Virus record (IMG/VR): IMGVR_UViG_3300036766_002280
Coordinates: 1-54,802 of that record
Strand: one strand, 5' to 3'
DNA from: a virus
DNA: 54,802 nt
Program-made: the position numbers and the translations under genes
Shown here: positions 9,872 to 50,607 of the stretch, one piece after another
Layout of the letters: each line of letters begins with the position of its first letter
Numbering within the stretch: the stretch's first letter is position 1
Notes under the pieces: model-generated
The model's input: only the letters and a program-made list of their open reading frames with translations
The model's database searches: none
What the model was told of the DNA's origin: nothing

Positions 9872-11404
9872 ATGGAAAATTTAAAACAAGAGTTACAGGA
9901 TTTGATTGTAAAATTCGGTAATATTGGTTCAGTGTTGAGATCTATGAGATCTAATTTGGAATTACAAATTCATCTGAAAGAATTAACTTCGTTTTTACCA
10001 GATAGTGCGTCAATCTCACAAAGAATTTGGCATGTAATGAGTAATGTTACGTCTATAAACAAATGTATTTTTTGTGGAAATAATACTAATTTTAGGATAT
10101 TCAGTGAGGGATACTCGGAATATTGTAGTAGAAAATGTGCCAGTTTAGGAACTGTTGAACGCAGAAAAGAAATCTTTTTAGCTAGATATGGAGTAGAAAA
10201 TCCAGCAAAATCTGCAGAAGTACAAGAAAAAACAAAACAAACTTGTTTAGAAAGGTATGGAGTAGAAAATCCTAGGCAATCCCAAGATGTTATTGAAAAA
10301 ACTAAAATAACCTGCTTAGAAAGATACGGAGTCAAATCCTATTCTCAAACTAGTGAGTACAAAGAAAAATTTAAGCAAACTTCATTAGAGCGTTATGGGG
10401 TAGAAAATCCCAATCAAGCTACGTCTGTAAGAGCTAAATATGTTAATACCTGTAAAGATAAATATGATATTACAAATACTTTTCAATTAACAAAACAGGA
10501 AGATCGAGAACAATCTTGTATAGAAAAGTATGGAGTAAAAAATCCATTTCAAATTCCGGAAGTTCAAGAACAAGTTCGTCAAACAAACTTAGAAAGATAT
10601 GGATTTGAAAATGTTGCATCATCCCCAGAGATTCAGGAAAAGATTTCTAGGTCTGTTAGGGACTACTGTCAGGATCATGATAATCCATTTTTGGGGAAAC
10701 ATCACACAGAAGAATCAATTCAAAAAATGAAGGAAGCAAAAATTAAGTGGAAAGAAAATGGAGGAAGAATAGTAAGAACTGAAGAGTATTGTAGTCTTCT
10801 AAGTACAGCATTAATAAAATATCACGCTTCTAGATCTGTAGAAGAAAAAAAGAAACAGGCTATGATTATGACGAATGCCAGAAAAGAACAGAATACAATT
10901 CCTTGGGCTAAAGGTCTAACTAAAGAGACGGATGAAAGAATTCTTAGGATCTCTCAAAAACAATTAAGAAAAATTATATCAGAAGAAACACATAAAAAAC
11001 AATCGATAGCTGCTATAAAAAGAATAATTCAACATGGGCCATCTTATGTTCATAGACATTATTGTAAAGGGCACTTTTATTCTGAAAAATCAAATTCGAA
11101 GTTAAGATATGATTCTTCTTATGAGTTAGTTGCTTTCAAGTCGTTGGAACAGCGAGTTGATATTCAAAGTTATGATCGATGCAAGTTTTATATTGAATAT
11201 TTATTGGATGAAAAAATTCATAGATATTCTCCAGATTTTCATGTTGTTTATGAAAATGGTATTCAAGAAATAATTGAAGTCAAACCTTCCGATCTTGTTT
11301 ATTGGAAAATTAATCAAATAAAAATTCAAGCTGGGGAAAAATATTGTAAACAACGTAGCTGGAATTTTACTGTTTGGACTGAAAAAGAGCTAGGAATCAA
11401 ATAA
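9872..11404 (+). CDS. Homing endonuclease-like protein: zinc finger, RYGVENP repeats, PD-(D/E)XK-like nuclease
   Basis: A 510-residue protein. The ATG at 9872 is preferred over an upstream frame start at 9770, which would overlap the previous gene. An N-terminal zinc finger (CIFCGNN...YCSRKC) is followed by about seven tandem repeats of the type ERYGVENPxQxxEVQEKxKQT. Next come a NUMOD3-like motif (WAKGLTKETDERIL) and a C-terminal domain with SYE, then YSPDFHVV and IIEVKPSD. The last set fits the E...PD...ExK order of TnsA/PD-(D/E)XK nucleases. The repeats probably bind DNA. It sits after a structural gene with its own promoter, as free-standing homing endonucleases often do. Part of its repeat DNA is almost identical to a stretch in the gene at 16593. 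Confidence 0.8.
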   Translation: MENLKQELQDLIVKFGNIGSVLRSMRSNLELQIHLKELTSFLPDSASISQRIWHVMSNVTSINKCIFCGNNTNFRIFSEGYSEYCSRKCASLGTVERRKEIFLARYGVENPAKSAEVQEKTKQTCLERYGVENPRQSQDVIEKTKITCLERYGVKSYSQTSEYKEKFKQTSLERYGVENPNQATSVRAKYVNTCKDKYDITNTFQLTKQEDREQSCIEKYGVKNPFQIPEVQEQVRQTNLERYGFENVASSPEIQEKISRSVRDYCQDHDNPFLGKHHTEESIQKMKEAKIKWKENGGRIVRTEEYCSLLSTALIKYHASRSVEEKKKQAMIMTNARKEQNTIPWAKGLTKETDERILRISQKQLRKIISEETHKKQSIAAIKRIIQHGPSYVHRHYCKGHFYSEKSNSKLRYDSSYELVAFKSLEQRVDIQSYDRCKFYIEYLLDEKIHRYSPDFHVVYENGIQEIIEVKPSDLVYWKINQIKIQAGEKYCKQRSWNFTVWTEKELGIK

Positions 11405-16592: not shown

Positions 16593-18611
16593 ATGATTCC
16601 TAACGATACTTCCATTGTTAATAAGTATAAATCTACGCTTTCGGATCAAAAGCTTGGGGATCTTAATCCAGCTAAAAGGCCCGAAGTTAGACAAAAAATA
16701 AAAGATTCGCTACTCTCTAGAAAGTCCAATTTTGTAATTTTGAACTTATCCAAAGAAAGTCTTCTTGAAGAAATTAGTAATTTATTTTCCAGTAAGGCTA
16801 ACAATATCAAAAGTATTTCATCTTATCTTAGTCATAATACTTCTTTAGCTAAGGAAATAGAGCGCCATACTCCATTTTTAGTCACTGCGAATACTAATCA
16901 ACGACTTTATCATCTCAGGCACAATCTTGTTGAGCAGGGTAAATGCCTAACCTGTTGTAGTATTACTAAATTTGAAAATTATGCTAAAGGATATAGATCT
17001 TGGTGCAGTGTTGAATGCGTTCAAAATTCCACTCAGATTCAGGATAAAAAGAAGAAAACTTCATTTCAAAACTATGGAGCAGAATATGCCTTACAATCTG
17101 AATTAATCCAGAATAGGAAAAAACAAACAAATCTTGAACGATTTGGGGTAGAGGAACCTCTTAAATGTGATACTATAAAAGAAAAAATAAAACAAACAAA
17201 TCTTGAACGATTTGGGGTAGAAAATCCTTTTGAATTAGAGTCGATTCAAGAAAAAATAAGAGTAACAAATCTTGAACGTTATGGGGTAGCCTACCCACTT
17301 CAAAATAAAGAAGTACAAGAAAAAACAAAACAAACAAATCTTGAACGTTATGGAGTAGAAAATCCAGCAAAATCTGTAGAAGTACAAGAAAAAACAAAAC
17401 AAACTTGTTTAGAAAGGTATGGAGTAGAAAATCCAGCAAAATCTGCAGAAGTACAAGAAAGAATTAAGCAAACTAATCTTGAACGTTTTGGCTTTGAGAG
17501 TCCTTTTAAAAATAAGGAAATTAGAGATAAAACAAATAAAAAAATTTTTCAAAAGACTTATTTTAAATTACTGCACAACGATAAATTTAGTACTAAAATC
17601 AGGCCATTATTTTTACTAGAAGATTTCAAAGGGGTAGAATTCAGGTACAAATTTCAATGTCTAAAATGTGAGAATGTTTTTGAAGATAATTTACGAGATG
17701 GCAAAATTCCAAGATGTTGCATTTGTTTTCCTCATGCCAAATCCATATTAGAAAATAACATTCATGATTTTTTAAAATTGTGTAATGTTCCAAATATTTC
17801 TAGGAATTCCAAATCAATTATTCCTCCTCTAGAACTTGATTTGTACCTTCCTAATCATAAATTAGCTATCGAATTTAATGGAGTATTTTGGCATAGTGAA
17901 AACAGTCCTGGAGGCACAAGTCCTCAATATCATCTCAACAAGACTAAACTTTGCGAAGAAAAAGGAATTCAACTTCTTCATATCTTTGAAGATGAGTGGA
18001 TTGAAAAACAAGAGATTGTGAAATCAATTATCAAAAACAAACTAGGTTTAATAGAAAACAAAATCTATGCTCGTAATTGTGAGATCCGAGATGTTAGCAA
18101 CGAAGAAGCCTACAACTTTCTTTTTGATAATCATCTTCAAACTCCTGTAAATTCTAAGCACAATTTTGGATTGTATACTAAAGACAACGAACTAATGTAT
18201 TTGATAGGTTTGTCCAAACCTAGATTCAACAAAAAGTACGAGTACGAATTAGTTCGTTCTTGTCCTAGAATAAGTACTAGTGTAATTGGTGGATTTTCTA
18301 AACTTTTAAACTATGCTGTTAAAACTTTACAAATAAAAAGTTTAGTCAGCTACGTTGATAAACGATACTTTACTGGGTCTGGATACAACGATAAAAATTG
18401 GAAGTTAGCACATGAAACCACTCCGAATTACTTCTACACTACCGGGAATGTTTTAAGGGAATCACGAGTCAAATTCCAAAAACATAAACTAAAGCATTTG
18501 TTTCCCGATTTATACGATGCAAAACTAACTGAATGGCAGATCATGCAGTTAGCCGGATACGACCGTATCTGGGACTGCGGCAACCTAGTATTCGAGCTAA
18601 TTATTCAGTAA
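16593..18611 (+). CDS. Large homing endonuclease-like protein: zinc finger, RYGVENP repeats, Vsr-like nuclease
   Basis: A 672-residue protein. The ATG at 16593 is preferred to the frame start at 16557, which lies in the -35 box. It has a zinc finger (CLTCC...WCSVEC) and about eight repeats of the ERFGVENPFELESIQEK type. A CxxC pair (QCLKCENVF, CCICF) comes next, then a Vsr-like core (LELDLYLPNHKLAIEFNG, FWHSE, ending LLHIFEDEW). A further alpha/beta C-terminal domain (about 480-672) follows; its LVRSCPRISTSVIGGFSKLL looks acetyltransferase-like in pattern, which is weak. The gene separates the tube gene from the tail chaperone, so it is an insertion into a conserved tail operon. Confidence 0.8.
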   Translation: MIPNDTSIVNKYKSTLSDQKLGDLNPAKRPEVRQKIKDSLLSRKSNFVILNLSKESLLEEISNLFSSKANNIKSISSYLSHNTSLAKEIERHTPFLVTANTNQRLYHLRHNLVEQGKCLTCCSITKFENYAKGYRSWCSVECVQNSTQIQDKKKKTSFQNYGAEYALQSELIQNRKKQTNLERFGVEEPLKCDTIKEKIKQTNLERFGVENPFELESIQEKIRVTNLERYGVAYPLQNKEVQEKTKQTNLERYGVENPAKSVEVQEKTKQTCLERYGVENPAKSAEVQERIKQTNLERFGFESPFKNKEIRDKTNKKIFQKTYFKLLHNDKFSTKIRPLFLLEDFKGVEFRYKFQCLKCENVFEDNLRDGKIPRCCICFPHAKSILENNIHDFLKLCNVPNISRNSKSIIPPLELDLYLPNHKLAIEFNGVFWHSENSPGGTSPQYHLNKTKLCEEKGIQLLHIFEDEWIEKQEIVKSIIKNKLGLIENKIYARNCEIRDVSNEEAYNFLFDNHLQTPVNSKHNFGLYTKDNELMYLIGLSKPRFNKKYEYELVRSCPRISTSVIGGFSKLLNYAVKTLQIKSLVSYVDKRYFTGSGYNDKNWKLAHETTPNYFYTTGNVLRESRVKFQKHKLKHLFPDLYDAKLTEWQIMQLAGYDRIWDCGNLVFELIIQ

Positions 18612-25776: not shown

Positions 25777-26388
25777 ATGGCAGTATTTGCATTAAGTCCT
25801 TGCCTTAAAGCTTTCGTTCTAGCACTTTCTGCCCCATTACGGGCTCAGCTTAGAACTTTGTTGTATACAGCTCAAGGAATTTTAAAGGCTCAAATTGCTC
25901 AGAATGTAGCTTTACTTGGAAGAAATGATATTTCAAAAGCCTTGTACAAAAATGCCGTAGATCAGATTGAGAGCTACCTTAGACCTATAGAGCAGGCAAT
26001 GAATTTGATTCCTTTTTCTGATATGGCAGGATGCGTTGAAGGCAATGTAATGTTGTCCAACGTTCAGAATATTTATTTTCAATACAAAGGAAAGGCTCAA
26101 GATTTTGCTTACAAGTATGCGCAGTACGGATTTGCTAGTACCTATGCCACTAAGACTCAGGATGAGTTAATAAACGCTTTGAATCAGATAACAGGAATAC
26201 TGGATCAATTGGATAATCTAGGGTCGTCCTTAGTAACAATTGGGACAAGGGTACAAGTCTATTCAATAAATAAGATAGGTACGGTAACTGGTTTACCATC
26301 TGGAAATCAGGTTACCGTTACTTTGGATATTCCACCACCAGCAACTATCACAACAGGGGCAGGAGACGTTGGGGTAGTTAATGCTTAG
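25777..26388 (+). CDS. Putative baseplate-associated structural protein
   Basis: A 203-residue protein starting directly after the previous stop. It is mostly helical (LRAQLRTLLYTAQGILKAQI; DELINALNQITGILDQLDNL) with a short C-terminal beta segment (NQVTVTLDIPPPATITTGAG). It could be a chaperone or a structural component; nothing in the sequence decides. It closes the hub/spike cluster and is followed by the 5' leader element of the gp25-like gene. Confidence 0.5.
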   Translation: MAVFALSPCLKAFVLALSAPLRAQLRTLLYTAQGILKAQIAQNVALLGRNDISKALYKNAVDQIESYLRPIEQAMNLIPFSDMAGCVEGNVMLSNVQNIYFQYKGKAQDFAYKYAQYGFASTYATKTQDELINALNQITGILDQLDNLGSSLVTIGTRVQVYSINKIGTVTGLPSGNQVTVTLDIPPPATITTGAGDVGVVNA

Positions 26389-26450
26389 AATTATAACCCC
26401 TTAGTTAGAAAACTCTTGAGTCTTTAGCTCATGGCTAGTTCGCAAAGGAG
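26388..26450 (+). promoter_or_regulatory. Conserved 5' leader element, copy A (promoter-like -10, hairpin, ribosome site)
   Basis: This 63-base stretch is about 90% identical to 36558-36617. It contains TATAAC (26392-26397), with TTGGGG 17 bases upstream at 26369-26374. A hairpin with a GAGT/GCTC stem and CTTTA loop follows. It ends in AAAGGAG (26444-26450), 8 bases before the predicted ATT start. It is probably a promoter plus structured 5' untranslated region. Confidence 0.65.
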
Positions 26451-26458
26451 TATTTAAA

Positions 26459-27226
26459 ATTATTCTAGCACAAATAAAATCTAAATTAGACGGTAGGGTC
26501 AGTTTATTCGACGTTCAGAGCCAATCCACACTAAACAACCGGAACGACCTCGTAATTAACCCTCAAGGTCAATTAAGCCGATTAATAGGGATAGATAAAC
26601 TTTCCGCTCATGTAATTAAATATATACTAGTTTTGAAAGGGACTTACTCAGATGTCTTGATTGGAACGGATTTAACAAATCTTAAAGTTGCTGGAAAAAG
26701 CGATTTTTCATTGAAGTCGGATATACTTCTTAGTCTTACTGAATATAGTAGTCTTCAATCTGCCAATTCTGTTGTTGATAAAACTATTATTGGACGGAAT
26801 ATATACCGAACAAGAACTCCGGATATTACTACGTCTTGGACTAAAATAAATAAATATTTAGTATCAAATAATTTTTATTATGATGGGAATTTAAATGCTG
26901 GAGCCATCTATTATTATAGCTTAACTCAAGTAAAAAATGTAAATGGATCCCCAGTTGAAAGTGGCATAGGAACCACAGTTAAGATTAAGATTCCAACTTC
27001 AGATTCTTTGAATGCCCAGATAACTGGAGATTTTATAGTAGTTCCAAAAAATAAATCAGTTACTTTATATTGGAAAACAGGTATTTTTTATCAAAAAGAA
27101 GAAGTACTTAGAAGCGTAACTAAAATTTTAACGTGGTTTGATGCAGGTGACCCTCGCAGTTTAAATATTGTCCTAGAACTTACCAATCTGGATAAGCAAG
27201 TTCTTACAGCAAGTGCTGTAGCATAA
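26459..27226 (+). CDS. gp25-like baseplate wedge protein with ATT start codon
   Basis: The coding frame runs upstream past TTG 26633 without a stop to at least 26459. The added N-terminus (KSKLDGRVSLFDVQSQSTLN; NPQGQLSRLIGIDKLSAHVI) matches the gp25/gpW-type wedge pattern. No ATG, GTG or TTG is available in frame. GGAG (26447-26450) lies 8 bases before ATT (26459), exactly the spacing found between the paralogous leader and its ATG at 36626. The product is 255 residues: a gp25-like core and an inserted FN3-like beta domain (about 105-200). It lies directly before the J-like wedge gene, the standard order. Weak AUU initiation would keep its level low. Confidence 0.75.
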   Translation: MILAQIKSKLDGRVSLFDVQSQSTLNNRNDLVINPQGQLSRLIGIDKLSAHVIKYILVLKGTYSDVLIGTDLTNLKVAGKSDFSLKSDILLSLTEYSSLQSANSVVDKTIIGRNIYRTRTPDITTSWTKINKYLVSNNFYYDGNLNAGAIYYYSLTQVKNVNGSPVESGIGTTVKIKIPTSDSLNAQITGDFIVVPKNKSVTLYWKTGIFYQKEEVLRSVTKILTWFDAGDPRSLNIVLELTNLDKQVLTASAVA

Positions 27227-27236
27227 GGAGTAATTG

Positions 27237-28709
27237 GTGGCTATTTTAGACGTATTTCAGATGGTAACACAGCTTCAAAATTTTATTAAAGCTAAAAATC
27301 CACAAGTAGATATACAACCTGGCACGGATTTGTATGATCTTTTATTTTTAACAAATGCTCAAGCTGCCAGATCTTTATTTGAGGCAATAAATACTTTACA
27401 GTTGAATCAAAGCCTATCGACAACGACTGGAACTGATTTAGATTTAATTGCAAAGAATTATAACATAACAAGACGTCCTGCTACGTATGCTACAGGGGAA
27501 GTAACTTTTTACGCAACGTCTTTTTCGACTGATATTTTGATTCCAAGTGGGACAATTGTCAGTACAGCTGGAACAAATGTTACCCCTCCGATTAGATTTT
27601 TGACCACAAAATCGGTTGGAATGGATGTTGTTAATAAAGCTATCTATTACGATTCTACTGCTACAAGATATCAAGTTACGACGCCAATAATTGCTGAATC
27701 TGCAGGCATTTCTTCTAATGTTGATACCCAGATTATAAATCAGATTGTTTCTCCAGTAGCTAATATTAGTGGGGTAGTAAATAATACTCCTACAATTGAT
27801 GGAACAGCACAAGAAACTGATGCCCAACTTCAGCAAAGATGTCTTCAAGCCTTTGTTGTCGGTAGCGTAGGAACTTTGTATGGGTATAGAAAATTACTAA
27901 CTGATAACTATACACAAGTGCTGGATGTTAAATCTATTGGCCCATTTGATACTGGTGCTATTAGAACAGATGGGGTAGATACTTTTGTGATTCTTTCCTC
28001 TACTTCCTCTGCTGGTAACAGCATCCAAACGTCCGAAACTTTCGTTTTTAATACGGGAGATACTGGGTACGTTCCAGTTAATAGACCTGTAATTACTATT
28101 GATACCGTATATGGCACAGCGACAGGGGCGGTCAGAACTTTTATACCATATCCGAATGCTTTCCCAGATTATAAATATGTAAAAGATACTACAGGGGCAT
28201 ACGCTATGTCAGTTCAATCAGCGGATAAACTTTTGTGGCTGTCTGGAATCAAACCTGATACAAATTCAAGTGTTTTAATTACTTATACTTATAACAGTCT
28301 GGTTCAGACTATGCAAACGTTTATGAATCGGGATGAAAATAAAGTGGTAGGTGCTAATGCCTTAGTTAAGCTAGGCTTCATAGCACAGACATATATAACT
28401 TTGTCTGTAAAATACTTTTCAACTGTAACAGATACTGGAGCTGCTCAGACTAAAGTTGCTGCAGCAATTACACAATATTTGTCGTCTTTTACATTTGGGC
28501 AGCAACTAGATTTATCTGATCTTATAGTAGTTGTTCAGACTGGAGCTTTTACTGATTATACTATAACAGAAGTAGATTACGTAGTTTTTAACACAGCTCA
28601 AATGTATGCAATTGTTCCTGATCTTGGGTATACCCTACCGATGGTCAACGACGTTATTATAGTTTCAGCCAACCAGTACATCCGTGAAGGACTAACTGTT
28701 TTTGTATAA
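27237..28709 (+). CDS. Baseplate J-like / T4 gp6-like wedge protein
   Basis: About 490 residues. GTG at 27237 is 6 bases after AAGGAG; the TTG at 27234 is only 3 bases away. The N-terminus (VDIQPGTDLYDLLFLTNAQA; STTTGTDLDLIAKNYNITRR) and ETDAQLQQRCLQAF are hallmark baseplate J sequences. The middle is beta-rich, and the C-terminal QYLSSFTFGQQLDLSDLIVV matches the family's last domain. It joins neighbouring wedges around the hub. It follows the gp25-like gene as in most contractile tails. Confidence 0.85.
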   Translation: MAILDVFQMVTQLQNFIKAKNPQVDIQPGTDLYDLLFLTNAQAARSLFEAINTLQLNQSLSTTTGTDLDLIAKNYNITRRPATYATGEVTFYATSFSTDILIPSGTIVSTAGTNVTPPIRFLTTKSVGMDVVNKAIYYDSTATRYQVTTPIIAESAGISSNVDTQIINQIVSPVANISGVVNNTPTIDGTAQETDAQLQQRCLQAFVVGSVGTLYGYRKLLTDNYTQVLDVKSIGPFDTGAIRTDGVDTFVILSSTSSAGNSIQTSETFVFNTGDTGYVPVNRPVITIDTVYGTATGAVRTFIPYPNAFPDYKYVKDTTGAYAMSVQSADKLLWLSGIKPDTNSSVLITYTYNSLVQTMQTFMNRDENKVVGANALVKLGFIAQTYITLSVKYFSTVTDTGAAQTKVAAAITQYLSSFTFGQQLDLSDLIVVVQTGAFTDYTITEVDYVVFNTAQMYAIVPDLGYTLPMVNDVIIVSANQYIREGLTVFV

Positions 28710-36557: not shown

Positions 36558-36617
36558 GAATTATAACCCCTTAGTGAGAACCCTCTTGAGTCTTTAACTC
36601 AGGGGTAGTTCAAGGAG
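36558..36617 (+). promoter_or_regulatory. Conserved 5' leader element, copy B
   Basis: This is the 60-base partner of 26388-26450. TATAAC (36562-36567) has TTGTGT 16 bases upstream (36540-36545). A longer hairpin forms from GAAC-CCTC-GAGT paired with ACTC-GGGG-GTTC around a CTTTA loop. AAGGAG follows, 8 bases before ATG 36626. Sequence differences from copy A fall mostly in positions that keep or weaken pairing, not in the loop. Confidence 0.65.
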
Positions 36618-36625
36618 ATAAGATA

Positions 36626-38017
36626 ATGCAAGTGCAATCATCAGCGTATATTCATGGAAAATTAGGAAATACCTCATCGTTTGTAGTCTACTATCCAAAT
36701 ACGAATGTCTACGAGATTGCTAACGATTTACCGGGCATTTCTTTCGATTTTGGGGATAAATACCAACACCTCATTTGGAAACTTTTCAAGTTATCTAGAA
36801 CCCTTCAAATCTACAATGAAACTTTTGAAACAGACAGAAACTATACCCTGTTTATTGAACCGTACGGAACTTGTAATCTGAAATGTTCTTACTGCTATGA
36901 AAAAGATAGTTGGTTCAATAAAAATAAGTTGGAGTATGATCGTATTGTCGAGGTCATCGGACTTTACAAAGTGAAAGATATTCGAATCTTTGGTGGAGAA
37001 CCATTCCTTGATGAGCAAATGATTTTGAGGCTGTTCAAAGAGTATCCAGATATGGAGTACCATGTTTCTTCCAATGGCATTCCTATCACAGAAAGAATTG
37101 TTGAAGCTCTGAATGAGGTACAATGCAATTTGCAATTGAGTCTTGAACCAGAAGAATGGAAGCAGAGAGTTAACTACGTTGAAACGACTCAGATGGAATT
37201 GCTTGAGCCAAAATGGAAGATAATAAGAAAATATAGAGGAAGACTTTCTGTCCGGGTTACTATTCCCTGTGATATGGATATTCCGTATGTATCTTTTATT
37301 GATTTTGTGGATAGAATTGCGGAGAAGAAAGGCGATTACAATTTTTCTTTGTCGCTTTGGCCTTCAGCAGGACAAAAACTTCCAGTGTGGTTTGATAAAG
37401 TGTTGGAAGAAGGCCAGATAATTTTGGACGATCCAGAACTTAGAAAGAAAATGTATGATAAATTTGTTTGGACTTCTTATATTAGCAGGTTCAAAGAATT
37501 CACCAGATTTCCTTGGTACATGGCAAATTGTAATGCAGGCAGTAGTTCAATCAGCTTGGCTCCAAGTGGAATGCTATATGGTTGCCACGAAGACGCAGTC
37601 ATTGAGAACGAGGCATCTTTAATTGGAGCAAAAACTGTTGACCCTGATAAACAATTCAAAGTGATTAGCGAGTATATAAGAGCAGCGAATACAAAAAAAG
37701 AATGTCCAACGTGCGATGCCCGGTATATGTGTGGCGGTATTTGCTATACAAAAGAAATTGATAGTGCTTGCGACTATTCCAGAAAGATAATGCCCTTACT
37801 GATGAGGTGGATGCCTTTGGCTGTATCCAGGCAGTTACCAAGTTGGGAAGGAAAAACAAAGGAATTTGAGACTTTTATTAAAATGAATATGACTGAGTTG
37901 GATTTGTTCTTTCAGGAGGAAGTATGGAATCAGTATTGTTGTGGGGAGCTACCAAAGGAAAAGGTTCTGGAGTTGGGGAAAGTGTTGCAAAGTCTCTTAT
38001 CGCAAAAGACAAGTTAG
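36626..38017 (+). CDS. SPASM-domain radical SAM enzyme, candidate peptide maturase
   Basis: A 463-residue protein. Residues 1-75 may be a substrate-binding domain. The radical SAM core has TCNLKCSYC (82-90) and GGEPF (123-127). From about residue 300 the spacing CNAG...GCHED...CPTCDARYMCGGIC...C fits a SPASM domain binding auxiliary clusters, as in anSME, PqqE and thioether-forming RiPP maturases. It lies in the same direction as the fibre and first radical SAM gene, with two coupled small genes between. I infer that it modifies the Cys-rich fibre tip or another peptide. Its last 94 bases overlap the SDR gene. Confidence 0.85.
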   Translation: MQVQSSAYIHGKLGNTSSFVVYYPNTNVYEIANDLPGISFDFGDKYQHLIWKLFKLSRTLQIYNETFETDRNYTLFIEPYGTCNLKCSYCYEKDSWFNKNKLEYDRIVEVIGLYKVKDIRIFGGEPFLDEQMILRLFKEYPDMEYHVSSNGIPITERIVEALNEVQCNLQLSLEPEEWKQRVNYVETTQMELLEPKWKIIRKYRGRLSVRVTIPCDMDIPYVSFIDFVDRIAEKKGDYNFSLSLWPSAGQKLPVWFDKVLEEGQIILDDPELRKKMYDKFVWTSYISRFKEFTRFPWYMANCNAGSSSISLAPSGMLYGCHEDAVIENEASLIGAKTVDPDKQFKVISEYIRAANTKKECPTCDARYMCGGICYTKEIDSACDYSRKIMPLLMRWMPLAVSRQLPSWEGKTKEFETFIKMNMTELDLFFQEEVWNQYCCGELPKEKVLELGKVLQSLLSQKTS

Positions 38018-38879: not shown

Positions 38880-38909
38880 ATCAAAATACGGTACTACTAA
38901 AATTTATTC

Positions 38910-38936
38910 TTGATTTTGTATTCAAAATATTATAAT
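38910..38936 (+). promoter_or_regulatory. Early-type promoter, copy 1
   Basis: CTTGATTTTG begins at 38909 (TTGATT 38910-38915) and TATAAT lies at 38931-38936 inside a near-perfect palindrome (ATATTATAATAT). The spacer is only 15 bases, shorter than in copies 3 and 4. The downstream gene starts at 38956 with AGGAG at 38943-38947. Confidence 0.6.
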
Positions 38937-38955
38937 ATAATTAGGAGCTAATTTA

Positions 38956-40008: not shown

Positions 40009-40477
40009 AAAAGAAGTTACCTGGCATTCGTTCGAATACGACTGTCAAAAACTGGCAAAGGATATTAAAGATTCTAATTTAAAAATTTCTACACTTATTG
40101 CTATCGCTCGTGGTGGTTTGTTTGTTTCTGGATATCTAGGACATCTTTTAGGCATAAACGATATCAGGGTTGTCTGCCTAAAATCTTATGCTAACAAAAC
40201 GCAAGGAAACCTAGAATGTTTGTTCTTATCGGATTTCGATCCAAAAACTTCTTTAGTTGTAGACGATCTGGTAGATACTGGCAGAACTTTGGCGTACTTA
40301 ACAAAATTAAAAAACAGTGAGCTAATTACCTCTGTTTTATATTATAAGAGGACTTCTTCTTATATTCCAACATTTTTTGCTGAAAAAGTCGATCCAGATT
40401 GTTGGATTAATTTTCCGTGGGAGCTTCAAATAAAAAATGAGCAGACATCGTACAGACATGGTAGGACAGATTTTTGA
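40001..40477 (+). CDS. Phosphoribosyltransferase, XGPRT-like
   Basis: A 158-residue protein with GTG start overlapping the previous gene by 8 bases. The PRPP-binding motif is clear (LVVDDLVDTGRTL, about 85-97), with an N-terminal LIAIARGGLFVSGYL hood/loop region. The C-terminal WINFPWE is typical of xanthine-guanine phosphoribosyltransferases. These enzymes convert xanthine or guanine plus PRPP to nucleotide for salvage. The tail after WINFPWE is read through the start of the following endonuclease gene, suggesting that its original stop was displaced by that insertion. Confidence 0.8.
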   Translation: MIEKEVTWHSFEYDCQKLAKDIKDSNLKISTLIAIARGGLFVSGYLGHLLGINDIRVVCLKSYANKTQGNLECLFLSDFDPKTSLVVDDLVDTGRTLAYLTKLKNSELITSVLYYKRTSSYIPTFFAEKVDPDCWINFPWELQIKNEQTSYRHGRTDF

Positions 40478-41114
40478 TCGATTAACTGTATTGTTCTTCA
40501 GTCATTATAATAAATGGGGGCAAGCGTACTGGCTGTGTCGCTGTCTCTGCGGCACAGAAGTTGTTGTCTCAGGGTACAATCTTCGAAGTGGAAATACTAG
40601 ATCTTGTGGTTGTTTGCGTAGAGAAATAGTAAAAGAACTTCATACAACTCACGGCCTTTCATCACACCCTCTTTGTCAAGTTTGGTTGGAAATGAACTAT
40701 CGATGTAATAATTCTAATCATGATGAATACCACAACTACGGTGGTCGAGCTGTTCCGATCGCTGTCTGCGATCGATGGCATCAAGACAATCCAGATGGAT
40801 TAGCTAACTTTATTACGGACATGTATCCAACATACAAAGCAGGCTTGTCCATCGAAAGAACAAAAAACAACTCAGATTACAACGCCGAAAACTGCACCTG
40901 GGCCACAAGAAAGGAACAACAGAATAATACAAGAAGAAATCGTTTGATTGAGTATCAAGGGAATGAAATAACTTTATCTCAGTTAATAGACATAACAGGT
41001 ACGACAATTCCCAGACAGATTTTGTATGGTAGAATCTTCGTCCGGAAATGGCCTATCGAGAAAGCATTAACAACTCCAGTAAGAATACAAAAACGAAAGA
41101 GAACGAAAGAGTGA
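40437..41114 (+). CDS. HNH/zinc-finger homing-endonuclease-like protein, paralogue 1
   Basis: A 225-residue protein overlapping the XGPRT 3' end by 41 bases. A zinc-finger module (WLCRCLCGTEV...SCGCLRRE) is followed by NYRCNN, YHNYGGRAVPIAVCDRWHQD, LSIERTKNNSDY and NCTWATRKEQ. This is the order of a phage family usually labelled HNH or AP2-type endonuclease. A C-terminal helix-turn-helix-like segment follows (TLSQLIDITGTTIPRQILYG). It is close in both DNA and protein to the gene at 49963. The start at 40437 aligns with the paralogue's start region; GGGAG is 13 bases away, so initiation may depend on coupling. Confidence 0.75.
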   Translation: MSRHRTDMVGQIFDRLTVLFFSHYNKWGQAYWLCRCLCGTEVVVSGYNLRSGNTRSCGCLRREIVKELHTTHGLSSHPLCQVWLEMNYRCNNSNHDEYHNYGGRAVPIAVCDRWHQDNPDGLANFITDMYPTYKAGLSIERTKNNSDYNAENCTWATRKEQQNNTRRNRLIEYQGNEITLSQLIDITGTTIPRQILYGRIFVRKWPIEKALTTPVRIQKRKRTKE

Positions 41115-41126
41115 GAAGAAAATCAA

Positions 41127-41621
41127 ATGCAGGACTTAAAAAAAATTATTATTATTGACTTAGATGGCACCTTAGCGGATAGTTCCCTTCGCAAGCATCA
41201 TGTAGAAGGCGTGAACAAAGACTGGGCGTCCTTTTACTTTAATATCCCTTATGACAATGTTAATCTGTGGTGTAAAGAATTAGTACTAGGCATGATCAGT
41301 AGATCAGTTGAATCTCTATTTGTATCAGGACGTCCAGAAACGATGGAATCTAATGGAGTTGTACATCCTATCAAAGAATGGACCCTTGATTGGCTCCAAA
41401 CCCAATTTCAGCTGACTTCAAAATCCTTTTTTGAAGAAAAGTTATTCATGAGAGCTTCTGGGGACAAACGAGAAGATTTCATAATCAAAAAAGAATTGTA
41501 CGAAGACCATATCAAAGGTAAATATGAGGTCTTATTCGTAGTTGATGACCGTAGGCAGGTCGTCAACATGTGGAGATCTGAAGGGCTTGTTGTTCTGCAT
41601 TGTGCTGACGGAAATTTTTAA
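41127..41621 (+). CDS. HAD phosphatase, polynucleotide 3'-phosphatase-like
   Basis: A 164-residue protein with the HAD nucleophile motif DLDGTLAD (11-18), the second motif SGRPE and the acidic motif VVDDRRQVVNMWRSEGL. The last motif is characteristic of the phosphatase domain of T4 polynucleotide kinase and its stand-alone relatives. It likely removes 3'-phosphates from nucleic acid or nucleotides. Only the phosphatase half is present; no kinase P-loop is seen. Confidence 0.8.
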   Translation: MQDLKKIIIIDLDGTLADSSLRKHHVEGVNKDWASFYFNIPYDNVNLWCKELVLGMISRSVESLFVSGRPETMESNGVVHPIKEWTLDWLQTQFQLTSKSFFEEKLFMRASGDKREDFIIKKELYEDHIKGKYEVLFVVDDRRQVVNMWRSEGLVVLHCADGNF

Positions 41622-41623
41622 TC

Positions 41624-41657
41624 TTGATTTTGAATTCAGTTTCCACTATATTATAAT
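41624..41657 (+). promoter_or_regulatory. Early-type promoter, copy 2
   Basis: CTTGATTTTG starts at 41623, and the palindrome TATATTATAATATA ends at 41660 with TATAAT at 41652-41657. From TTGATT (41624-41629) the spacer is 22 bases. A second -35 candidate, TTGAAT at 41630-41635, gives 16. Confidence 0.6.
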
Positions 41658-41680
41658 ATATGAAGGCTAAAAATGGAACC

Positions 41681-42852: not shown

Positions 42853-42860
42853 CTATACTG

Positions 42861-42995
42861 GGGAGGGACTGATTGTCACTTCCACTTGGGCTGACAAAGG
42901 TCGGTGGCGTAACACTTAGACTTCAAATCAGCCGCCGGGTTACGACGGAAAGCGACTAAGTAGACTGTGGAGTTGACCACAATACGAAATCGCCT
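42861..42995 (+). ncRNA. Candidate structured RNA, type unknown
   Basis: This stretch has no coding frame but several exact pairings. GGAGGGAC (42862-42869) pairs with GTC-A-CTTCC (42875-42883). CGGTGGC (42902-42908) pairs with GCCGCCG (42931-42937). GTAAC (42909-42913) pairs with GTTAC (42939-42943), either as a pseudoknot or as an alternative stem. TGTGG (42966-42970) pairs with CCACA (42977-42981), enclosed by GCGA/TCGC. It is more GC-rich than its surroundings. It could be a leader/riboswitch-like element or a stand-alone RNA; no known class is recognised. Confidence 0.45.
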
Positions 42996-43028
42996 AGTTC
43001 ATTTTTATAAAATTAAAGGACGAGAAAA

Positions 43029-43052
43029 CCCCTGAGTTTTTAGCCTCAGGGG
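43029..43052 (+). promoter_or_regulatory. Perfect 8-bp hairpin related to leader elements A and B
   Basis: CCCCTGAG (43029-43036) pairs perfectly with CTCAGGGG (43045-43052) around TTTTTAGC. The core TGAGTTTTTAGCCTCA closely resembles the TGAGTCTTTAGCTCA core of the leaders at 26388 and 36558. No U-tract follows, so it is probably not an intrinsic terminator. It lies 60 bases before the small secreted-protein gene. Confidence 0.55.
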
Positions 43053-43112
43053 ATGAATCACCAAACGCAGAAGAATTAAAAACCTTTTTGGCGAAAACGA
43101 AAGAAGGTGGGT

Positions 43113-46338: not shown

Positions 46339-46529
46339 CTAAAGAACAACAACTAATGATTACGGAGTTGCTAGAGCACCGCGACGAGCTTAATGAATGG
46401 GAGCAGGGGTTTGTTGATAGCATCAAGAATTGGAATAACCTGTCGATTGCTCAGGTTGAGTCACTTGAGAAAACTTACGAGCGAGTATTCGTCGGAAATG
46501 ATGAGGAAAGCGAAGAAATGGAATTTTAA
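46335..46529 (+). CDS. Small acidic helical protein
   Basis: A 64-residue protein with the pattern EWEQGFVDSIKNWNNLSIAQ followed by VESLEKTYERV. This short helical module occurs in many phage proteins of unknown role. It ends in an acidic tail (DEESEEMEF). It is translationally coupled to its neighbour. Confidence 0.55.
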   Translation: MTKEQQLMITELLEHRDELNEWEQGFVDSIKNWNNLSIAQVESLEKTYERVFVGNDEESEEMEF

Positions 46530-46536
46530 ATAATCC

Positions 46537-46565
46537 TTGATTTTTGATTCCAATTATATTATAAT
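46537..46565 (+). promoter_or_regulatory. Early-type promoter, copy 3 (ligase)
   Basis: TTGATT (46537-46542) and TATAAT (46560-46565) have 17-base spacing. The -10 lies in the perfect palindrome TATATTATAATATA. It drives the DNA ligase gene at 46595. Confidence 0.75.
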
Positions 46566-46594
46566 ATAATTATAAATTAATTGGGAGATATAAA

Positions 46595-49962: not shown

Positions 49963-50607
49963 ATGGGCAAATTCATAGACATGATAGGACATGTTTTTGA
50001 TAGATTAACTGTATTGTCCTTCAGTCATTATGATAAATGGGGAAATGCCTGCTGGCTGTGTCGCTGTCTCTGCGGCACAGAAGTCATTGTCGCAGGGCAC
50101 AGTCTTCGAGATGGAGATACTAGATCTTGTGGTTGTTTGCGTAGAGAACTTCGTACAACCCATGGATTATCATCGCATCCACTTTATAATGTTTGGGGGA
50201 TGATGAATGATCGTTGTAATAATTCTAATCATGATGAATACCACAACTATGGTGGCCGAGCTGTTCCGATCGCTGTCTGCGATCGATGGCATCGTGACAA
50301 CATCGATGGACTGCAAAACTTCATTACGGACATGTACGATACATACAAAGTAGGCCTGACTATTGAACGAACAGAAAACAACTCAGACTATTGTAAATCA
50401 AACTGCACCTGGGCCACCATGAAAGAACAATCTAATAATACAAGAAGTACAAGATTTATTGCCTACCAAGGCAGAGAAATAACTTTAACTCAGTTGATAG
50501 ACATAACAGGTACGACAATTCCCAGACAGATTTTGTATGATAGATTCTTTGTACGAAAATGGCCTATCGAGAAAGCATTGACAACTCCAGTTAGGAAAAG
50601 GATTTGA
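49963..50607 (+). CDS. HNH/zinc-finger homing-endonuclease-like protein, paralogue 2
   Basis: A 214-residue protein. ATG 49963 aligns with the start of the paralogue at 40437. It shares the zinc-finger module (WLCRCLCGTEV, SCGCLRRE), YHNYGGRAVPIAVCDRWHRD, LTIERTENNSDY and NCTWATMKEQ. The helix-turn-helix-like end (TLTQLIDITGTTIPRQILYD) is also shared. No ribosome site lies near the ATG. A TATATA (49951-49956) ends 6 bases before it, as in the other predicted leaderless nuclease genes, but no well-spaced -35 is visible. Confidence 0.75.
   Translation: MGKFIDMIGHVFDRLTVLSFSHYDKWGNACWLCRCLCGTEVIVAGHSLRDGDTRSCGCLRRELRTTHGLSSHPLYNVWGMMNDRCNNSNHDEYHNYGGRAVPIAVCDRWHRDNIDGLQNFITDMYDTYKVGLTIERTENNSDYCKSNCTWATMKEQSNNTRSTRFIAYQGREITLTQLIDITGTTIPRQILYDRFFVRKWPIEKALTTPVRKRI

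Follow-up and report, generated by a model that had tools for sequence, protein, structure and literature searches.

A gp25-like baseplate gene with a candidate AUU start codon behind a putative IS200/IS605 terminal remnant in an uncultivated phage

The window analysed here, a stretch of 54,802 nucleotides, comprises bases 1-54802 of the 118,802-bp record of an uncultivated virus, a single contig from one metagenome assembly. It carries a gene for a gp25/sheath-initiator-like baseplate protein, which is followed by the gene of a Baseplate J/gp6-like wedge protein, and a short element in front of the gp25-like gene is found again in front of a radical SAM gene (Table 1).

Table 1. Features of the baseplate locus and copies of the repeated element, with positions in the window
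Feature	Position	Strand	Remarks
Element copy 1	26388..26442	+	GAATTAT target-like start, body, right-end hairpin, ending TAGTTC(G); 89% repeat; R1 match 26404-26442
Hairpin of copy 1, CTCTTGAGT-CTTTA-GCTCATGGC	26413..26435	+	looks decayed; two non-standard pairs (cmsearch alignment)
Mini-ORF ATG..TAA (MASSQRSI*)	26431..26457	+	other frame, SD score 0; sole possible +1 frameshift donor
Shine-Dalgarno (SD) AAGGAG	26445..26450	+	just outside the repeat element
Proposed start codon ATT	26459..26461	+	sole near-cognate with a strong SD in the open stretch
gp25/sheath-initiator-like baseplate protein, 255 aa	26459..27226	+	BLASTP Tunturi_5 gp242, E 9e-6; adjoins baseplate J
Conserved segment, residues 23-60	26525..26638	+	upstream of and across TTG 26633; 28.5 bits, 0/200 shuffles
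First canonical start TTG	26633..26635	+	without SD, within conserved domain
Baseplate J/gp6-like wedge protein	27234..28709	+	TTG start with AAGGAG; phrog_6 E 1e-35, PF04865 E 3.5e-22
Element copy 2	36558..36612	+	intact 9-bp hairpin, ending TAGTTCA; R1 45 bits, E 1.2e-10; R2 E 2.2e-6
SD AAGGAG of radical SAM gene	36612..36617	+	ATG 36626
Radical SAM protein downstream of copy 2	36626..38017	+	PF04055 E 2e-13
Element copy 4	43020..43053	+	hairpin only, without TAGTTC; R1 E 0.002; R2 E 1, not significant

Residues 23-106 of the gp25-like protein are similar to gp242 from the Tunturiibacter phage Tunturi_5 (whole-protein E 9e-6), a baseplate protein that is encoded directly upstream of the Tunturi_5 baseplate J gene, and the order of a gp25-like gene followed by baseplate J recurs in Rctr197k, PhiCh1 and HRTV-24. 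Homology and position suggest that the protein belongs to the gp25/sheath-initiator-like family, an assignment in which no gp25 Pfam or PHROG profile was reached: no Pfam match, to PF04965 and PF10934 included, appeared at E up to 5, and the best PHROG was one of unknown function (E 0.12). An ORF of LR745208, a relative of gp242, matches PF10934 at 6e-6, under the curated cut-off. Compared with the short gp25-like proteins, the protein has a C-terminal extension. A single-sequence AlphaFold2 model was useless (pLDDT 32), and distant baseplate J proteins gave an alignment of too great divergence to serve as a search query.

The frame of the gp25-like gene is preceded by a TGA at 26417 and stays open from 26420 to its stop at 27226. 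As the initial annotation had pointed out, it contains no ATG, GTG or TTG upstream of TTG 26633, which leaves 213 nt free of canonical starts. Among the 117 ORFs of at least 120 aa in the whole 118.8-kb record this is the longest open stretch before a first start; the runner-up has 93 nt, with a good SD at that ORF, and TTG 26633 had no SD in the same survey. The annotation had also read a gp25-type N-terminus in this stretch, which the similarity to gp242 and the gene order bear out. Residues 1-60 alone align with gp242 at 28.5 bits (E 3e-6), a score equalled by none of 200 shuffles, and the aligned segment NDLVINPQGQLSRLIGIDKLSAHVIKYIL lies ahead of residue 59, so that initiation at TTG 26633 would truncate it. 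The first 58 codons have a codon-usage log-odds of 2.0 (mean 19.8, sd 7.8), which is atypical, yet far better than in the other two frames. The stretch 26459-26632 combines the atypical usage with a GC skew that is negative compared with the rest of the gene, as if acquired by recombination. That the protein starts at TTG 26633 behind a frame open by chance is hardly credible and was rejected, for although TTG opens 22 of the 117 large ORFs and the upstream codon usage is weak, this TTG lacks an SD and its use would lose the segment homologous to another baseplate protein.

A normally spaced SD is present at the upstream end of the open stretch. GGAG at 26447-26450 precedes ATT 26459 by 8 nt, as previously described and now confirmed by direct reading, and forms part of a six-base AAGGAG. 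We examined ATT, ATA, ATC, CTG, ACG, AAG and AGG as near-cognate codons, with an SD defined as a match of at least 6 nt at a spacing of 4-9 nt. Nine near-cognates occur in 26459-26632, and only ATT 26459 has an SD match of more than 4 nt at usable spacing (6-nt AAGGAG, 8 nt). Such an SD is unusual by chance, being found at 16 of 3320 interior near-cognates of other genes (about 0.5%). Only 18 of 96 first canonical starts have one, so the AAGGAG is strong even by the phage's own standard. The gene has an open coding frame with no canonical start ahead of conserved protein sequence. ATT 26459 is the best start candidate, for which the SD evidence is good, not conclusive, and the gp25-like gene probably starts at this AUU.

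Among the other readings of the start, an assembly error or strain polymorphism deserves most weight, unlikely as we consider it. The true base at 26461 might be G, giving ATG, or a surplus base in TTT 26453-26455 might part ATG 26431 from the frame, and indeed the dropping of one base near 26453 would join that ATG to the gp25-like frame. The record is a single metagenome contig, no second record of the phage was found, and the collections searched (viral_contigs and genome_contigs) hold no relatives close enough for a start-codon comparison: close relatives were absent from viral_contigs for the gp25-like protein, baseplate J, the DNA polymerase and the FtsH-like protease, and from genome_contigs for baseplate J. 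Against this reading, such short-read consensus errors are uncommon, and ATG 26431 has no SD, its use leaving the strong AAGGAG unexplained.

There is a slight chance that translation begins at a different non-canonical codon in the interval from 26459 to about 26540. The N-termini of the homologues are 14-20 residues shorter, residues 1-22 as counted from ATT 26459 lie outside all homology coverage, and the conserved GD/ND sits 28 residues in from the ATT start, versus 8-14 in the shorter gp25-like homologues; however, the remaining near-cognates of the stretch have an SD match of 4 nt at most. Still less probable is a programmed +1 frameshift similar to that of RF2, in which translation from ATG 26431 (MASSQRSI) would meet the UAA at 26455 and slip from AUU to UUU, aided by the upstream SD-like AGGAG. 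A +1 slip from AUU-UAA to UUU-AAA is conceivable and would enter the gp25-like frame exactly. However, ATG 26431 is without SD, sits in the hairpin of the element and is missing from copy 2, and 1 nt separates the SD-like run from the shift codon, where RF2 has 3 nt.

The leader of the gp25-like gene contains one copy of a 54-nt repeat (26388-26441 versus 36558-36611, 89% identical; chance expectation 0.00), of which the 118,802-bp record holds only two copies at BLAST sensitivity. Copy 1 follows the stop codon of the preceding gene and ends before the SD. The initial annotation had seen in the second locus a paralogous leader with GGAG 8 nt before a normal ATG. The repeat and the spacing stand, as GGAG 36614-36617 is followed after 8 nt by ATG 36626, with the AAGGAG spaced identically to that before ATT 26459, but SD and start are not inside the repeat. 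The identity spans only GAATTAT to TAGTTC, which makes the repeat a discrete element with shared ends and unrelated flanks. Since at both loci the homology runs no further than TAGTTC and the SD lies beyond it, each SD and start belongs to independent flanking sequence, and the equal spacing is ordinary SD spacing. The further claim that ATT occupies a homologous start position is thus not upheld, the repeat being a right-end hairpin of IS200/IS605 type, and the case for AUU is made by the SD, the absence of another start and the homology, the paralogous leader having no part in it. No Rfam riboswitch or other RNA family matched the leader, apart from an irrelevant opposite-strand match below threshold; ARAGORN gave only a tRNA-Asn at 46 kb; the first 15 nt of the leader had 33 matches in viral_contigs, none of which reached into the hairpin, and a relaxed pattern for the whole leader found none.

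The relation to IS200/IS605 ends of TnpB type emerged from a viral-contig search for the repeat's loop and arms, which retrieved a locus (L061) carrying GAAGCCCTTGAGTCTTTAGCTCAAGGGTAGTTCAC. The 21-base pattern CTTTARCTCARGGGTAGTTCA, derived from L061 and copy 2, matches 45 times in 257 Gb of prokaryote genome sequence, exclusively in methanogens, and unrelated sequence follows right after TAGTTCAC in these matches. Directly upstream of the matched hairpin, a TnpB gene (PF01385 and PF07282) was found at three loci and a PF07282 gene at a fourth. TnpB genes collected by family, not by pattern, have varied hairpins with the common end GTAGTTCA. A covariance model of right ends (R1) placed copy 2 (E 1.2e-10) and copy 1 (29.7 bits, E 4.7e-6) as the top two in the record. 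Since R1 was built from matches picked by a pattern that derives partly from copy 2, its E-values are generous, and the independent model R2, built solely from TnpB-flanking ends, is the fairer test; it gave E 2.2e-6 for copy 2 and E 0.007, a moderate match, for copy 1. A third copy before dnaB (record 97685-97724) reached E 8e-5 with R1 and was not significant with R2 (E 0.23). All four copies share the left TTATAA and the hairpin core, and three of the four have the TAGTTC end. Their left pentamers, ATTAT in copies 1 and 2 and TTTAT in copies 3 and 4, resemble a target site, of which no empty form was seen; most of the solo archaeal elements inspected start with TTTAT or GTTAT.

The element has a near-terminal palindrome like those of TnpB elements, ending TAGTTCA, as is characteristic of a PATE. 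PF07282, PF01385 and NF040570, the TnpB signatures of an autonomous element, are all absent from the record. In methanogens, mostly Methanosarcinaceae, solo elements lacking a tnpB in reach have this build and length, with the order TTTAT, AACGCAGCGTAAAACCCC, hairpin and TAGTTCAC. Judging from its sequence, the leader is most likely not a dedicated control region but what is left of one end of a small transposon, a terminal-only IS200/IS605 remnant (PATE). Twelve methanogen loci, mostly of Methanosarcinaceae, bear numerous discrete solo elements, each about 52 nt long with a right-end hairpin of IS200/IS605 type, and for the most part no tnpB is adjacent to them. Near the third copy, a second GGTAGTTCACTG lies 63 nt past the hairpin and directly before the dnaB GTG start (record 97685-97787), with a short frame that opens with TTG GAA ATT ATT between the two. 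Copy 4 is preceded by a strongly folded non-coding stretch (42853-43003; z -3.3 for 42853-43060) with CCTAGTTCA near its end and no Rfam match.

Two other roles of the element were considered, the first of which is compatible with an AUU start. We give only a small chance to a transposon end domesticated as a 5' UTR element, an operator or processing hairpin that would co-regulate the baseplate and radical SAM genes. The copies directly precede genes and copy 2 has kept a perfect 9-bp hairpin; however, the fold z-scores are unremarkable (-1.1), and the stem of copy 1 is decayed ahead of an essential-looking gene, which makes a conserved regulatory function at the gp25-like gene less likely. 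Very improbable is a role of the solo hairpins as working short guide RNAs that serve, in trans, a TnpB-like protein encoded by the host or by a missing part of the genome; no self-target of the flanks as guides longer than 12 nt was found within the record. If this were true, the guide would come from the 3' flank, so that in each unit the 5' end of a phage gene (gp25-like, radical SAM, dnaB region) would be the guide; rival phages without the insertion would suffer cleavage in important genes, and the ATT start would be a by-product of keeping the flank fixed.

Several further features of the record were observed. Three similar sigma-70-like promoters (TTGATTTT...TATAATA; 38898-38939, 41619-41660 and 46525-46566) stand before short genes and a DNA ligase gene; such repeated promoters, together with replication genes of bacterial type, suggest that the host is a bacterium. 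Record positions of about 79800-81490 (L037:5000-6690) encode a 335-aa protein similar to phage transposases (phrog_4285), flanked on both sides by a period-36 array composed of AGAAAACTA, about 10 nt, GTGTGTTA and about 9 nt; array and protein look like a TIGR-TasA system (PMC12045711). An ATP-dependent protease encoded nearby (L037:6918-8546) is about 50% identical to those of Bacillus phages AR9 and PBS1; the other proteins searched had no close relative. Two paralogous genes (40454-41083 and 49977-50594; 225 and 229 aa) lie 9.5 kb apart with 81-89% DNA identity and no Pfam match. Tandem coding repeats of 69 nt (ERYGVENP) are common to two ORFs (10155-10621 and 17041-17510), one of which matches homing endonuclease families.

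The joint explanation that we consider best, and moderately probable, is an AUU start at 26459 with a separate, terminal-only IS200/IS605 remnant in front of it. The 30S subunit would bind AAGGAG 26445-26450 and initiate at AUU 26459, presumably with the fMet initiator tRNA. Since AUU pairs imperfectly with the initiator tRNA, the yield is expected to be below that of AUG, and this may be tolerable because the baseplate part is needed in few copies. The leader would represent a transposon remnant of about 50 nt, consisting of a target-like ATTAT pentamer, a short body and a right-end/omegaRNA hairpin ending TAGTTC, with a sister copy before the radical SAM gene and weaker copies before dnaB and at 43.0 kb. 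It would have arrived by transposition and, in front of the gp25-like gene, would now be a spacer left by the transposon end. Gene callers readily overlook AUU starts and in this case would shorten the baseplate protein by 58 residues, into the conserved domain; if confirmed, the protein would be an unusual example of a virion protein initiated at AUU. As reinterpreted here, the leader implies that very short IS200/IS605 ends can occupy phage 5' UTRs and mimic paralogous regulatory leaders.

Comparison with known systems places each part of this locus. The window protein resembles PhiCh1 ORF29 and Tunturi_5 gp242 of the gp25/sheath-initiator family (PF04965, PF10934) in its gene order before baseplate J and in a central conserved segment, and differs in its long extension and in the lack of a score with gp25 Pfam or PHROG profiles. 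The reRNA of TnpB starts in the right end and extends into flanking sequence (PMC8612924), and like such reRNA/omegaRNA right ends the leader has a hairpin ending TAGTTCA with flank-derived sequence at once after it; unlike the reRNA of about 150 nt, its body is much shorter and the record is without TnpB. In Haloquadratum, the terminal-only form of PATEs can be as short as 52 bp, as in an ISHwa23 derivative (PMC3119063). The leader is like this 52-bp element in its length of about 50 nt, in a near-terminal palindrome related to IS200/IS605 ends and in having no transposase, whereas its copies are few, diverged and located in a phage genome, and their mobility is putative.

For the proposed start, E. 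coli infC and pcnB provide AUU codons behind a strong, well-spaced SD, an arrangement that the window gene shares with them and with S. aureus cvfC1; all three are chromosomal and experimentally confirmed, whereas the window gene encodes a phage virion protein with a start inferred from its sequence. AUU is preceded by a strong SD in cvfC1 and yields less than AUG in a reporter, AUU and AUA starts lowering the yield in S. aureus (PMC13009471). The GTC start of Streptomyces sigR was shown to be repressed by IF3 (PMC5472188). Both sigR and the window gene have a non-canonical start that is proposed to limit expression. That IF3 would limit the level of the wedge protein in this phage, as the initial annotation proposed, is plausible by analogy with the lowered yield of the S. 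aureus AUU and AUA starts.
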